NCBI GenBank assembly: GCA_947564735.1
Contig: CANOEC010000002.1
Span: 62,001-126,000 of the forward strand
Direction: 5' to 3'
DNA length: 64,000 nucleotides
DNA from: an uncultured Lachnospiraceae bacterium
GTDB taxonomy: Bacteria > Bacillota > Clostridia > Lachnospirales > Lachnospiraceae
In this document: positions 3,401 through 63,729 of the stretch, in pieces
How positions within the stretch are numbered: the first letter of the stretch is position 1
Layout: the number at the start of each line of letters is the position of its first letter
Made by a program: the position numbers and the translations under genes
Notes under the pieces: generated by a model
The model's input: only the letters and a program-made list of their open reading frames with translations
Databases searched by the model: none
What the model was told of the DNA's origin: nothing

Positions 3401-4798
3401 TCACTTACCCGCTCTTTCATTTGAAGTATACGAGTCAAAATCTATATATTCTATGTAGACATTTTGAATATCCAGTCCAAGCTCTTCAGCTGCAAGGGAT
3501 TTTAGCTCACTCTGCATATCAGAAGTAAGATTTTTTTCTTGGCTTACAATGACAATATTTATATATGCCTCCGTAATTTCACCATCCAAATCGCCTAAAA
3601 ACACATATGCCTCTGCAATATTTTCTTCATCATAACTGCGCAGCACTTTTTTCAGCTCAATCTCTTTAATACGCTTCTGGTCTTGTGGCAGAGGAAAATT
3701 ATCCGCGTAATGATGTTCACTTTCCACCTCGTGTAAAGTATTAAGCCCCAAAACAGCAGAGGCAATCGTAACCAGCATTACGCCTGCTGCAATCACTGTT
3801 TTTTTGGAATATCTTTGATGTTTCATAATCGCATCCAGCCTTTCTTTCAAATTCTTTTTGTCTTCAAACATCGTTATCGGAAAAGGCGTTTTTCTTATCG
3901 AATCAGATGCAACTGCAATCAATGTATCACCGTATTGTTGCATTTCACTAACATCAAACCTCTTTATTGCAGATTCATCACACGCTAATTCACATGCCTG
4001 GTTCATCTCTCGGCGCACCCGATAGACCAGTGGATTAAACCAGTGTATGGAAACAACAAAAACAAACAGCCATTTCACAAAAATATCATGCCTTTTCATA
4101 TGTATCACTTCATGGAGCAGAATATTCCGAAGATTTATGTCCTCATATGTTTTATCAGGCAAAAGAACCGCCGGATGAAAGAAGCCAACTAAAATGGGTG
4201 TTTCCACCATTGCATTTTTGTATAGCCGCAAAGTCTTTTTGCCTTCTAACAGGTTATTTAACAACTTTATTTCCCGCTCATTGGCACTCCTATTGTGTTT
4301 CCCAAGTTTTCGAACATAACACACATAGCATAGAATATGGACGCCAAGAACCAGAATCATCCCTAATTGCCAGAAAACAAATAAAATAACTGCGGCACTT
4401 GGAAAACAAGAAAATCTGCTTCGCAGATTATCTTGGGAAGAACCTTCGGTTCTTCCACATTTGTCGAAATTTCCTATACTACAAGAAAATCTGCTTCGCA
4501 GATTATCTTGGGAAGAATGCTGTGCAGATACTGTATCAGAAACCCACTGTGCAATATCATACACCGTTTTCATTGGCATTAGTGAATCATTCGCTATCGG
4601 AATCACAATGATTTTTGATACCGGCAGCATCAAAGCGATTACTACCGAAAACCACATATAATATTGAAATGACTTGGGAAGTTTATCTTTTATCACCGGT
4701 TTTAAAAGAAATAGAAAAATTGATAGTATACTGCCCGTCAAGGTCATTGAAAAAATGAGCTTCACTATCTCCACAGCATATTCTTCCATAACAGTCAT
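3401..4798 (-). CDS. BlaR1/MecR1-type M56 sensor metallopeptidase with repeat insertion
   Basis: The 465-aa membrane protein has hydrophobic helices near residues 10-33, 47-68, 136-161 and 238-256 and the zinc metallopeptidase motif HEVIH at 229-233 with a downstream Glu in the ELACDE segment. In this family the protease domain inactivates a BlaI-type repressor when an outer sensor domain detects a beta-lactam or other cell-wall stress. The C-terminal extracellular part here is short and lacks a penicillin-binding domain, so the signal is unknown. Residues 95-131 (nt 4406-4516) are an in-frame insertion of a palindromic DNA repeat: SSQDNLRSRFSC appears twice with a 25-residue period. The start overlaps the regulator stop in an ATGA. 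Confidence 0.85.
   Translation of the reverse strand: MTVMEEYAVEIVKLIFSMTLTGSILSIFLFLLKPVIKDKLPKSFQYYMWFSVVIALMLPVSKIIVIPIANDSLMPMKTVYDIAQWVSDTVSAQHSSQDNLRSRFSCSIGNFDKCGRTEGSSQDNLRSRFSCFPSAAVILFVFWQLGMILVLGVHILCYVCYVRKLGKHNRSANEREIKLLNNLLEGKKTLRLYKNAMVETPILVGFFHPAVLLPDKTYEDINLRNILLHEVIHMKRHDIFVKWLFVFVVSIHWFNPLVYRVRREMNQACELACDESAIKRFDVSEMQQYGDTLIAVASDSIRKTPFPITMFEDKKNLKERLDAIMKHQRYSKKTVIAAGVMLVTIASAVLGLNTLHEVESEHHYADNFPLPQDQKRIKEIELKKVLRSYDEENIAEAYVFLGDLDGEITEAYINIVIVSQEKNLTSDMQSELKSLAAEELGLDIQNVYIEYIDFDSYTSNERAGK
4406..4516. repeat. Palindromic repeat units inserted in frame in the M56 gene
   Basis: One full 75-bp unit (4407-4481) and one partial unit (from 4482) begin CAAGAAAATCTGCTTCGCAG. 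The unit contains two self-complementary parts, ATCTGC-TTC-GCAGAT and GAACC-TTC-GGTTC. The same family forms three tandem copies at 63471-63698 with a 76-bp period; here the period is 75 bp, which keeps the reading frame. The translated insert is hydrophilic and falls in a loop between membrane helices. Confidence 0.85.
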
Positions 4799-5178
4799 TT
4801 ATTCTCGTCCCCCATTCGGAAATACTGCTTTAGTTCATCAATATCCGCTTCTGTAAGTTCCCCGCTTTGACAGAGCGCCGCGACAAAATTCTTTGTACTG
4901 CCTTCATAAAGTTTATCGATTAAACTTTTTTTCTTATGTCCGACATAATCTTCTTTTGTGATATTGGGCACATAATAATGAATCTCTTTCTCTTGAATCG
5001 AAATCGCGCCTTTTTTCTGCAGCCTTCTTAAAAGTGTTGCAATTGTAGATTTCTCCCAACCCATTTTATCGCTCAACTCCATACGGATATCACTAAACGA
5101 TACAGCCCGTTTATCCCGCCATAGTATTCTCATCACCTCAAGTTCAGCATCAGAAATCTTAAAACTTATTGTACACAT
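4795..5178 (-). CDS. BlaI/MecI/CopY-family repressor
   Basis: The 127-aa winged-helix protein begins with the family signature ISDAELEVMRILW and a basic recognition region (STIATLLRRLQKKGAI), then a dimerisation tail. Such repressors bind TACA-N-TGTA dyads and are cut by the partner M56 protease. I choose the ATG at 5178, which has GGAG six bases upstream; an ATG four codons earlier (5190) has a poorer site. The gene overlaps the M56 gene by four bases, so the two are translationally coupled. No beta-lactamase gene is adjacent, so the regulated target is unknown apart from the operon itself. Confidence 0.9.
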   Translation of the reverse strand: MCTISFKISDAELEVMRILWRDKRAVSFSDIRMELSDKMGWEKSTIATLLRRLQKKGAISIQEKEIHYYVPNITKEDYVGHKKKSLIDKLYEGSTKNFVAALCQSGELTEADIDELKQYFRMGDENK

Positions 5179-5196
5179 GCTAATCTCCATTCCGTC

Positions 5197-36874: not shown

Positions 36875-36942
36875 AAAAACGAGCTCCGCTCGTTTGCGAG
36901 ATTTGCTTCGCAAACTCGTGCATAAACGTAGGAATTTCCTAT
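36875..36942. repeat. Palindromic repeat with GCTTCGC core downstream of rarA
   Basis: ACGAGC-TCC-GCTCGT is followed by GCGAGATTTGCTTCGCAAACTCGTGC and ..GTAGGAATTTCC. The second part matches the element at 28990-29052, and GAGATT(T/C)GCTTCGCAAACTCG also occurs inverted at 49614-49640. Confidence 0.65.
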
Positions 36943-40004: not shown

Positions 40005-41526
40005 ACTCTACTCCGCCTGACTTAAGCTTCAGCAGATTCTCCGAAACGCTGTTCACCTGCCGGAAGGATTCTTCGACTTCCCCGGTGACTTGCTTCTGCC
40101 TCTGCGTCTCCTCAACAATTCTGTCTGCCTGTTCAATGGTACTTTTCACAAGGCGCTCCATCTGTTCTATCGTATCCAGAACCTGCCCGCTGCGCATTTG
40201 TGTATCCGCACTGGAATCAGCGGCAATTCTCGCTTTCTCTTTTGATTCTTCCTGCAAATCGCTGATTTTTACCGCTTCCTGTTCTACTTCCATCAATTTA
40301 GCTACTTCTTTTGTGACATTATCGATATTCTCCTGATTTGAGACCTGTACCTCCTCCAACAGCCCGAAAACTCTTTGAATAATCCCGGCAATGGCATCAC
40401 TCGCCTGCTTGGAATTTTTCGCTAACTGTCCTACCTCCTGTGCAACCACGCTGAAGCCTTTTCCCATCTCACCTGCTCTCGCCGCTTCTATCGACGCATT
40501 TAACGCAAGCAGATTGGTCTGATTTGTGATTCCTGCAATCGTCTTCGCAAATTCGGAGATCTCCGCAATACCATTTTCCAGACTCTCAATCATCGTCTCC
40601 GTCTGTCTTGCCGAATGTTCAATTACCTCGATGCCTTTCGTCGTATTCCGCATCATCTCAATATAATTATGTATCTTCCCGGAGGTTTCTTTCGAGATAT
40701 CCAGCATATCCGCCACATTTCCTGCCAAATCGTCCGCATTCTGATTCAACTCATGCATCGAATCGCGAACCGAATCCACAAACCTTGAACTCTCATTACA
40801 ATCATGAAGCGTCGCCTGCGCTGAGCTTATAATGCTCTCATTCGTATCCGCGAAACCGTGGATATACATATCAAGCTGTTCCACCACGCTCCCTAGTTCC
40901 TCGGATGCCTTTTCGCATTCCTCCACGATAGCCGCCGTCTGCTTGGTGTCCGCCAGTTTGACAAGCATCTGATGGGACATTTCCGCAATTTTCACACAGA
41001 TAATGCTCATCACAACCGTCTCCAGAAGGAAGCCTAAGGAACGACTGAAAAACCACATAAACGTAGTTTCATACTCAATCTGCTGCACATGCAGCGAACG
41101 GAAATAGAGAGAAACCACCAGTAGAATATAAGAGACGACCGAAACCCGTATGGTGAATTTCTTATCATAATAAAAGAGACTGAATACCATCGCAAACGCA
41201 TAGGTCATATAGATGCCCAGCGCGGCGTTGGTTGCCATGAGTGCAACCAGCACAGCAAGGGCAAACGTCGTCACATATTTCATGATGCCAATGGGCGTAT
41301 TCATTTTATAGGCGATGCCCGGACCAATCGTTACGACAGCGGCTACTACCGTAAGAACCAGCAATTCACTCACTTTTGCCTGAAAAATACCGACCGCCGA
41401 AAGAATCATCAGCAACGGAAAAACAAGAATCAGCCATTTCAACACTTTGACGGCCGTTTTTGTCACTCTGATGTCATTTGCAATAAATATGTTTTCTTCT
41501 GTTTCCGCATTCCTATTCTCTTCCAT
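40003..41526 (-). CDS. Methyl-accepting chemotaxis protein with integral membrane sensor
   Basis: The 507-aa receptor has about six hydrophobic segments in residues 25-190 without a large extracellular loop, then a long coiled-coil signalling domain. The hairpin tip is present ([29 protein letters not shown]), which contacts CheA and CheW. There is no HAMP domain. Such receptors sense signals within or near the membrane. The ATG at 41526 is preferred over an in-frame TTG 21 bases upstream. The gene lies between mtnA and the aldolase and has its own terminator. Confidence 0.88.
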
Positions 41527-45657: not shown

Positions 45658-47466
45658 TTACCATAACATATCCAGCAGACCGCCGTACTCATCATCCAGT
45701 TTATAAATAATCTCGCCCCAATCAGCAAATGTCATTTCAAAAAATGCCGTCTTTGCTTCCACCGATGGACTAATCTTTCCCTTCATCGGCTCCACCATGA
45801 CATCGCCGCTTATCCGGAACAATTCCTCATCGTCCATCACAAATGTAAGCTTCTCCAGTTCCAAAGTCACGCTCTCCCCCTTCACGATATCATCCAGACT
45901 GCTTTCCATAATTAAATCAAAATCATCGACATCGTCTTTCATGGAAAACGTGATGTCAAATTCGTCATTTGCCGCATTACAATTCATGACATATTTCATG
46001 ATACCATCACCGTAATCGTCCGAATACTTGATATCCATGCTGACCTCGTATTCATCCGCTGTTGCATTCTGTACCAGCTGGCAGATGATTTCCCGTGTTT
46101 CGCCATCCGTTCCTTCTATGCTTATCTTGCCCTGTATCTTGTCAATGCTTCTTTTCTCTCCTAAGAAAAAGAGTTCTCCTGAAAGCGTCGCTTCGGAATC
46201 CAGCATCTTGACCGGTTCCTCAAACATAATGCTGTCGATACGGTTTTTTGATGAAATCTCAAACAGCAGACTCACGTCCGAAGTCACCCAGTCATCATAC
46301 TCGTTCAGGACATCCATGTTGTCTGTCAGCTCGGCAATCTCGCTGTATTCCCTGATGTAATTTCTGACCAGACGGTTCATCTGCTCCTCCGGAAATGTGA
46401 CCCGGTACAGCCCCTTTTCTACCTTCTCGATTGTCATTGCTTCTTTGCACGCTTCTAAGTCACGCGTTGTCTGCTCAAACGCTGTGCTGAAATTTTTCCA
46501 GTCTCTCATGGAACTTACATTGCCTTTGTCGGAAAATAAATCAATCGAAAACTCTTCCGCTCCGCTTACATCAGAATATTCCGCCAGAATCGAATTGTTA
46601 AACTGGCTGACAACATTTTCATTCTCCACATACATATCTTCTATGAACAGTTCCGGTATGGAGAAGCAGAACACTTCATCATTGGCATAAATATTCACAT
46701 GCGCAAAATCATAATTCATCATGCTGATACTTGTTTCCGCATTCAGCTCTTTTGCATCCATGTCCTTATAAAAATCAGTATCCACACCGAGCGTCACACT
46801 GTCTGCCATCGCAATATCCATGGAAAAATCCAAAGACGAATCCATATGACACCCGTCTTTTCGTACCATTTTTAAAATATCTTCGCTGCCGATTTTCTCC
46901 GCCAAAGGATTAGTGGTCTGTGAAATTTCTTTCCCGATATTCTGAAATCCCTTGCTAATCTTATATGTCGGCGTGCTCCTAACATACACCATTGCTCCTA
47001 TGATAACGACAACAAGCGCCATGCAGACGCACGCAATGGCGATTACAACCTTAGCAGCGCCCTTCTTTTCCTTGGGCTGGTAAGGGCGGATTGGTCCCCC
47101 ATTCATACTACCCTGCCCTTGATAGGAACCGCCATATGGATTGTATTGTGATTGCTGTCCGTATGGGTTATTCTGCTGCTGTTCATACGCATTATATTGT
47201 GTGTATTGCGCCTGTTGTCCGTACGGGTTATCCTGCTGCATCTCATACGGATTGTATTGTGATTGTTGTCCGTATGGGTTATTCTGCTGCTGTTCATACG
47301 CATTATATTGTGTGTATTGTGATTGTTGTCCGTATGGATTATTCGGTTGCTGTTCATTCAAGCCTTTGCCCTGCTGCGCCGATGCTGTGTCACTATCTGT
47401 AACTCCGGGAATCGGTATTTCCTGCGGTATATAGCTGTCTGCATGATTCTGATTGTTTTCGTCCAT
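45658..47466 (-). CDS. Membrane-anchored protein with Q/N/Y-rich repeats
   Basis: The 602-aa protein has no signal peptide. Residues about 35-115 are low-complexity repeats built on NNPYGQQSQYNPY and NNPYGQQSQYTQYNAY. A basic KEKKGAAK precedes one transmembrane helix (about 138-162). About 440 residues follow outside, made of beta-strand-rich acidic sequence that may contain repeated lipoprotein-like domains. So the disordered repeats face the cytoplasm and the folded part the exterior. AGGGGACAG precedes the ATG. It lies between the ABC ATPase and permease genes, suggesting a role with that exporter. No family recognised. Confidence 0.7.
   Translation of the reverse strand: MDENNQNHADSYIPQEIPIPGVTDSDTASAQQGKGLNEQQPNNPYGQQSQYTQYNAYEQQQNNPYGQQSQYNPYEMQQDNPYGQQAQYTQYNAYEQQQNNPYGQQSQYNPYGGSYQGQGSMNGGPIRPYQPKEKKGAAKVVIAIACVCMALVVVIIGAMVYVRSTPTYKISKGFQNIGKEISQTTNPLAEKIGSEDILKMVRKDGCHMDSSLDFSMDIAMADSVTLGVDTDFYKDMDAKELNAETSISMMNYDFAHVNIYANDEVFCFSIPELFIEDMYVENENVVSQFNNSILAEYSDVSGAEEFSIDLFSDKGNVSSMRDWKNFSTAFEQTTRDLEACKEAMTIEKVEKGLYRVTFPEEQMNRLVRNYIREYSEIAELTDNMDVLNEYDDWVTSDVSLLFEISSKNRIDSIMFEEPVKMLDSEATLSGELFFLGEKRSIDKIQGKISIEGTDGETREIICQLVQNATADEYEVSMDIKYSDDYGDGIMKYVMNCNAANDEFDITFSMKDDVDDFDLIMESSLDDIVKGESVTLELEKLTFVMDDEELFRISGDVMVEPMKGKISPSVEAKTAFFEMTFADWGEIIYKLDDEYGGLLDMLW
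47119..47350. repeat. Coding tandem repeats (111-bp compound unit)
   Basis: Two long units, each coding for about 37 residues with two NPYGQQ blocks, are almost identical in DNA sequence, including synonymous positions. This indicates recent duplication. Confidence 0.8.
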
Positions 47467-49520: not shown

Positions 49521-49613
49521 TGTTTACCTCTTTCTGCGCACTCTTTTACGCGTATTCTCTCAATTCACGTTCAGCACACGCCCATGCGCTAAACTCTTTT
49601 CATATTCTTTACC

Positions 49614-49740
49614 GAGTTTGCGAAGCGAATCTCGTGACTGAGCTTTGCTCAGTCAGCCTATTGAACGGACGTTCCCTCATACCGTCATCCATCTGCCAAA
49701 TTCGTGCAAGCACGATTTGTCCGACAGATTCGGTCTTGCT
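49614..49740. repeat. Palindromic elements between etfB and etfA
   Basis: Contains GAGTTTGCGAAGCGAATCTC, the inverted form of the GCTTCGC element seen at 28990 and 36890, then GACTGAGC-TTT-GCTCAGTC and further short complementary pieces (CGTGCAAGCACG, CCGACAGATTCGG). No coding frame is apparent. Confidence 0.6.
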
Positions 49741-63470: not shown

Positions 63471-63698
63471 ATAAGAAAATCTGCTTCGCAGATTATCTTG
63501 AGAAGAACCTTCGGTTCTTCCACGCTTTACCGGAACTTCCCGCACCATAAGAAAATCTGCTTCGCAGATTATCTTGAGAAGAGCCTTCGGTTCTTCCACG
63601 CTTTACCGGAACTTCCCGCACCATAAGAAAATCTGCTTCGCAGATTATCTTGAGAAGAGCCTTCGGTTCTTCCACGCTTTGGCGGAACTTCCCGCACC
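63471..63698. repeat. Three tandem 76-bp palindromic repeat units
   Basis: Units start at 63471, 63547 and 63623 with ATAAGAAAATCTGCTTCGCAG and differ at only a few positions. Each has ATCTGC-TTC-GCAGAT and GAACC/GAGCC-TTC-GGTTC hairpins and ends in GGAACTTCCCGCACC. They fill most of the 325-bp divergent gap between trxB and the SDR gene. The same unit occurs in the M56 gene at 4406-4516. Confidence 0.9.
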
Positions 63699-63729
63699 AT
63701 AAAGTATTATAACACAAAAGGGGAATCCT

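Follow-up and report, generated by a model that had tools for sequence, protein, structure and literature searches.

In-frame copies of a dispersed palindromic repeat, probably a non-autonomous REP/MITE-like element, in three genes of a Lachnospiraceae bacterium

The gene of a BlaR1-type receptor in an uncultured Lachnospiraceae bacterium contains, in frame, a palindromic DNA repeat that also occurs between genes, and the locus raises the question of what this repeat is and how it came to lie within a protein-coding sequence. The window, i.e. the whole stretch of 64,000 nucleotides that was analysed, corresponds to positions 62001-126000 of contig C2 (C2:62001-126000) in the G000 numbering of a 4.52-Mb draft genome of 102 contigs. 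Five of its features bear on the question:

3401..4798, minus strand: M56 peptidase (BlaR1-type) gene, 465 aa (PF05569, E=2.2e-49)
4407..4481, plus strand: complete 75-bp repeat unit (covariance-model match, model R1, E=7.0e-21; the unit is among the 43 source units of the model)
4482..4526, plus strand: partial second unit, which includes hairpin 1, breaks off halfway through a hairpin 2 of the TGC type and gives way to native sequence (right end placed by eye)
4795..5190, minus strand: BlaI/MecI-type repressor gene (Penicillinase_R, PF03965), upstream of the M56 gene
63472..63699, plus strand: three 76-bp units of this repeat family, arranged head to tail (covariance model)

An earlier note on this DNA had described a 75-bp unit and a partial second unit inside the receptor gene; both are indeed present and the frame is open through both. 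The note ended the insert at 4516 (4406..4516), which proved too short, as the second unit extends to about 4526, within the hairpin-2 variant (by eye); the model match to this partial unit (C2:66482-66566) extends beyond the repeat into gene sequence. The model also confirmed the claimed kinship with three 76-bp units at 63471-63698, one position to the right. Residues 95-131 of the M56 protein are repeat-encoded and lie, in agreement with the proposed loop between membrane helices, between the hydropathy-predicted membrane segments 46-71 and 129-163. The claim that 37 residues were added to the protein stands for the residues themselves but not for a clean addition: the loop is 40 residues long here vs 23 in four of four close orthologues without the insert (G013, G001, G023 and G031, 62-72% identity; the comparison used matches of at least 62% identity and left out those of 42% or less), and part of the loop was therefore replaced by the repeat. 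Because flanking codons were lost, the M56 case is less clean than the other two in-gene cases described here. Among the orthologues, that of G013 (L084) has one TAG in the aligned region and that of G031 (L087) a frame change near its 3' end; the loop stretch is stop-free in both.

The alignment of 43 units shows that the repeat unit is composed of hairpin 1, hairpin 2 and a tail of about 25 bp. The unit starts with CAAGAAAA; hairpin 1 is CAAGAAAATCTGC-TTC-GCAGATTATCTTG, with a CAAG...CTTG foot in the 4407-4481 unit, hairpin 2 is GGAAGAACC-TTC-GGTTCTTCC or alternatively a TGC/GCA form, and the tail terminates in CCTATNNTA (its end being TATNNTA). Unit lengths are chiefly 73-78 bp, 19 of the 124 units found in the genome being 75 bp long and 38 of them 76 bp. 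Variant loci have hairpin 1 and the tail without hairpin 2, or a hairpin 1 with a GAAC/GTTC foot or a TCGC/GCGA inner stem; the BOX repeats of other bacteria are likewise modular. The predicted hairpins are supported by covariation: within the genome, 3 of 21 predicted pairs changed on both sides with pairing kept, several of the 21 being invariant and uninformative on compensation, and across the genus compensated changes occur at 6 of 9 predicted pairs. Single-strand folding is much better than that of shuffled sequences, with z scores of -4.1 and -3.7 on the two strands of one intergenic unit; the piece inside M56 scored -7.4 and -7.1. The 75-bp unit is open in four of its six frames, which was equalled in 61 of 5000 shuffles. 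The earlier statement that two of three frames stay open in the intergenic copies holds for each single unit on the plus strand, but no frame is open across the three-unit array, and the M56 gene, unlike these plus-strand frames, reads the minus strand of the repeat.

The repeat is clearly dispersed. In the window, the hairpin-1 core has 11 matches over both strands vs 0.38 expected from shuffles (five units, each matched on both strands, and an unrelated site at 40537) and hairpin 2 has 6 vs 0.01 expected. The covariance model yielded 147 matches at E<=1 in the whole genome; removal of 22 matches with E above 1e-4 and of one opposite-strand overlap left 124 units in 95 arrays, of which 70 hold one unit, 21 two and 4 three. 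Thus, similar repeats abound elsewhere in the genome and four close M56 orthologues lack the residues, so that one of the findings named in the earlier note as fatal to its claim (the same residues in all close orthologues, and no similar repeats elsewhere) is not borne out. The repeat lies at or within a few bases of a contig end in C28, C34, C38, C73 and C89, which indicates that it probably limits the assembly and that the census is a lower bound. Outside this genome the covariance-model search covered the genus, with stricter filters and at most ~61 candidates scored per genome: a match at E<=1e-4 was found in at least 40 of the 78 genomes, ours among them, and the relative richest in matches has at least 33. 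These counts are again lower bounds because this search recovers 62 own-genome matches, vs 147 in the single-genome search. The narrower hairpin-1 pattern, with two mismatches at most, was found in 6 of 61 genomes, ours being one of the six; the 24 outside the genus all lack it. In a wider genome-contig collection, where our genome is possibly absent, a 35-base pattern of the repeat retrieved no record and a 24-base pattern three; the viral sequences scanned gave no match, and the literature searched contained nothing evidently describing this family in Lachnospiraceae.

Other repeats are present in the window. A second palindromic repeat, GAGC...GCTC beside a GCGAG...CTCG-like hairpin, is present in inverted orientation at window positions 36881-36918 and 49613-49650, and similar sequence follows the A-tract of some elements of the genome (C31:118, C9:93259 and C10:109274). 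At 47133-47354, a 111-bp unit is repeated in tandem about twice, with sub-periods of 51-60 bp.

Is M56 an isolated case? Two further genes carry the repeat in frame:

C60:863-2287: GHKL histidine kinase gene (HATPase_c_5) with one 75-bp unit
C12:92027-94522: transglutaminase-like membrane protein gene (Transglut_core) with one 75-bp unit

The kinase has exactly 25 extra residues, absent in all five orthologues aligned (out of 15 other genomes with a match), and the transglutaminase-like protein has exactly 25 extra residues near its C-terminus, absent in all six aligned (out of 16). That the in-gene units were gained in the lineage of this genome would be the simplest reading of these alignments. 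According to hydropathy only, the kinase insert immediately precedes a membrane segment predicted close to the N-terminus, and that of the transglutaminase-like protein lies in a C-terminal tail. M56 and the kinase read the minus strand of the unit in the same frame and share a nearly identical repeat peptide, IGNFDK-GRTEGSSQDNLRSRFSC; the transglutaminase-like protein reads the plus strand in a different frame. All three full in-gene units belong to the 75-bp class (19 of 124 units), and the reading frames of the three genes are unbroken because full copies of exactly 75 letters amount to 25 codons. Three random units of 123 would all be 75 bp long with a chance of about 0.003, a post hoc figure that is based on three cases and leaves out the partial M56 unit.

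In-gene copies are nonetheless rare, as 3 of the 95 arrays are shown to lie in genes. Frame scans by script covered 84 arrays, with 20 of the translations read, and 20 later sites, and the best candidates were checked against relatives; since the orthologue test covered three loci (M56, the kinase and the transglutaminase-like protein), three in-gene arrays is a lower bound. Inspection by eye of 40 loci from six relatives yielded no convincing in-gene case, which leaves this species as the only one with such copies so far. Several candidates were discarded: C1:113066 and C6:70496 have long open frames with no Pfam family and, by eye, no gene-like sequence, and at C23:59590, C1:184812 and several loci of relatives the repeat lies, by eye, in the part of the open frame that precedes the probable true start. 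A search for genes split out of frame by the repeat, which required at least 90 codons per side, used no homology and missed all three real in-gene cases, covered 87 of the 95 arrays and returned 13 frame pairs, none resembling one gene. At two further loci the repeat apparently supplies the C-terminal codons of an open frame, CTP-synthase-like by eye at C25:46332 (L054:909-2678, minus strand) and without a Pfam family at C1:175645 (L031:1552-2703, plus strand).

The sites occupied by the repeat have a recognisable context. At least five A in the eight bases of the right flank were counted at 45 of 62 arrays vs 20 of 248 control octamers (the 62, out of 90, have readable flanks, with the tail intact and no unit after it), and at 37 of 52 vs 26 of 208 in relatives. 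On the opposite strand, a hairpin of -8 kcal/mol or below is predicted at the right flank of 25 of 44 arrays (44 out of 54 were counted), compared to 7 of 44 for the 45 bases that follow; at 19 of the 44 the A-tract and this hairpin occur together. Such a flank often looks like the intrinsic terminator of the neighbouring gene. The flank motif, YAAAAA, resembles the start of the unit itself, CAAGAAAA, and this likeness suggests that self-targeting may be the origin of the head-to-tail arrays. In the transglutaminase gene, the unit lies directly 5' of CAAGAAAAAG. A diverged filled/empty pair, L201 of a relative and L035 of our genome, fits the placement of the element before the A-tract of a terminator; among four comparisons with the relative G080 one was readable, the flanks of the other three being too diverged. 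The bases before an array agree with its end over 6 nt at 6 of 54 arrays vs 1.0 expected (shuffle p 0.0002), and at least one case is due to the tail of a neighbouring unit. No target duplication was seen at the two clean gene sites (kinase and transglutaminase-like), and duplication was not retained as a firm feature since the excess, while significant, is small.

The earlier view of a mobile repeat that tolerates insertion in genes is partly supported: two further genes carry the repeat in frame, but 3 of 95 arrays are concerned, the encoded peptide is not constant, and it is the dispersal of the repeat and its gain with respect to orthologues from which movement is deduced. A mobiliser was sought in the genome: the Y1_Tnp search found no intact TnpA/RAYT-type gene, only a frameshifted gene in two pieces and a fragment with a stop. 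Locus L149 (C1:122500-127500) contains a frameshifted Y1-type transposase gene, IS200-like by eye. The frameshifted Y1 gene is flanked by two hairpins, neither of the repeat family, and the census has no match there. On these results of the Y1_Tnp search, RAYT was rejected as the mobiliser. A likeness of the hairpin feet (CAAG, GAAC) to IS91 was dropped as well because the feet vary in relatives.

How does the family compare to known systems? Elements of the IS200/IS605 group insert beside a fixed short target motif without duplicating it. Their single-strand transposition involves secondary structures near the ends (PMC6006769). Our repeat shares such structures and, with YAAAAA as a candidate target motif, possibly the mode of insertion, the difference being that the Y1_Tnp search of this genome recovers no intact TnpA. 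In-frame insertion of small palindromic repeats is already established, for RPE and for intragenic REPs. According to PMC10969869, RPE are dispersed palindromic repeats inserted in frame that lengthen unrelated proteins; they measure about 150 bp, encode a conserved peptide each and nearly half of them (from three of ten families) are in genomic ORFs. The likeness is the in-frame insertion inside protein genes, encountered here in three of them. However, our repeat is set apart from this published description by a 75-bp length, by 3 of 95 arrays in genes and by an encoded peptide and frame that are not constant, two insertions being read on the minus strand and one on the plus strand. The Rickettsia comparison of the earlier note thus seems apt in the sense of "works like", and membership in RPE or in REP is not supported. 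REPs carrying a GTAG or CGTC tag, whose mobilisation is ascribed to RAYT, are small hairpins, mostly intergenic and sometimes in ORFs, and in several species dimers or groups of intragenic REPs encode 20-30 residues (PMC3733652). Our repeat is likewise small, hairpin-forming, mostly intergenic and present in some ORFs, but its unit has two hairpins and a tail, its arrays are direct repeats, its hairpin-1 feet (CAAG, TAAG, GAAC, CGAG, AAAG or GTGG, by eye) lack the GTAG/CGTC tag and the Y1_Tnp search of its genome found no RAYT gene flanked by the same hairpins. With bacterial MITEs (RUP, NEMIS, ERIC; also BOX), which the same two sources describe as non-autonomous, short and multicopy, some in genes (PMC10969869, PMC3733652), it shares these three properties; by eye it has no terminal inverted repeats, and it has no clear target duplication. 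The family differs from these systems in unit build, tandem direction, target and the missing tag, and no linked RAYT was found.

Taken together, we consider it probable that the family is a non-autonomous REP/MITE-like repeat whose frame-neutral in-gene copies survive in tolerant loops and tails. A hairpin-recognising enzyme acting in trans would insert the unit 5' of YAAAAA-like sites; new copies would land beside old ones, because the 5' end CAAGAAAA resembles such a site, and build tandem arrays. Insertions in genes would usually be lost, and those of the 75-bp class (25 codons, four of six frames open) would be kept in loops and tails of membrane proteins, where the encoded peptide is probably neutral. 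Close relatives differ at orthologous sites: hairpin modules are gained or lost in steps of about 26 bp, a module change separates C19 of our genome from L212, and between L200 and L218, at an orthologous site, a whole hairpin is swapped for another compensated one (most compared loci were chosen because the element is present, so that they do not measure persistence). Such changes could indicate that copies spread or change without any transposase, through slipped replication, template switching or gene conversion among hairpins, and the same may be said of C37:19917-20097 (in L043), a ladder in which the hairpin-1 module alone is repeated head to tail several times with a 26-bp period, and of the M56 breakpoints, which by eye resemble short-homology joins. 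This accounts well for local changes and is compatible with a mobile element inside arrays, but it does not account for 95 dispersed arrays with similar ends and a common A-tract preference, and as the general explanation we regard it as doubtful. In a small but unbiased sample of three sites sought in a sister genome, one had no orthologous region and two had a shortened or degraded element; most copies thus look old, and movement of the repeat looks slow or past.

Selection might instead act on the unit as a structured RNA at gene ends (terminator reinforcement, mRNA-end stabiliser or cis-regulator), in-gene copies being recombination accidents. The compensated hairpins, the frequent adjacency to terminator-like hairpins and the elements kept at orthologous sites of related species (most loci were fetched for holding the element) are in line with this. 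However, no Rfam family matches the window at the gathering score, the intergenic array giving weak sub-threshold matches only (E 0.083 and 0.41), tandem arrays and a species-specific sequence better fit a selfish repeat, and each of the two clean in-gene copies consists of one entire unit, a sign that a defined element was inserted; we find this explanation unlikely. That the insertions were selected for a benefit of the peptide to the protein, as in a Rickettsia-style coding element, draws on the near-identity of peptide and frame in M56 and the kinase. It is very improbable given the other strand and frame in the transglutaminase-like protein, the 3 of 95 arrays shown in genes and loop or tail sites that may tolerate many peptides. 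Finally, in a draft assembly with the repeat at or near the end of five contigs, the assembler might have placed the repeat inside an intact gene. We give this hardly any credence: in all three genes the two flanks of the unit align to one orthologous protein and in the correct register, which a misjoin would not restore, and a 75-bp insert is short enough for ordinary reads to span.

Returning to the non-autonomous repeat, it is tempting to speculate, although it is quite unlikely in full, that there is a genus-wide terminator-seeking hairpin element with target sites similar to itself and that in one species a 75-bp form arose which is frame-neutral, has four open frames and provides proteins with ready-made 25-residue segments, with an exon-like role in a Lachnospiraceae bacterium. 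More generally, our results extend the coding insertion of small palindromic repeats to a probable Lachnospiraceae genus, the evidence coming from comparison to orthologues in three genes. With a set of filled sites and a tendency in targets (YAAAAA, frequently next to a terminator), the mechanism of mobilisation becomes accessible to testing, and a warning follows for protein comparisons: lineage-specific 25-residue inserts in such proteins can derive from repeats.
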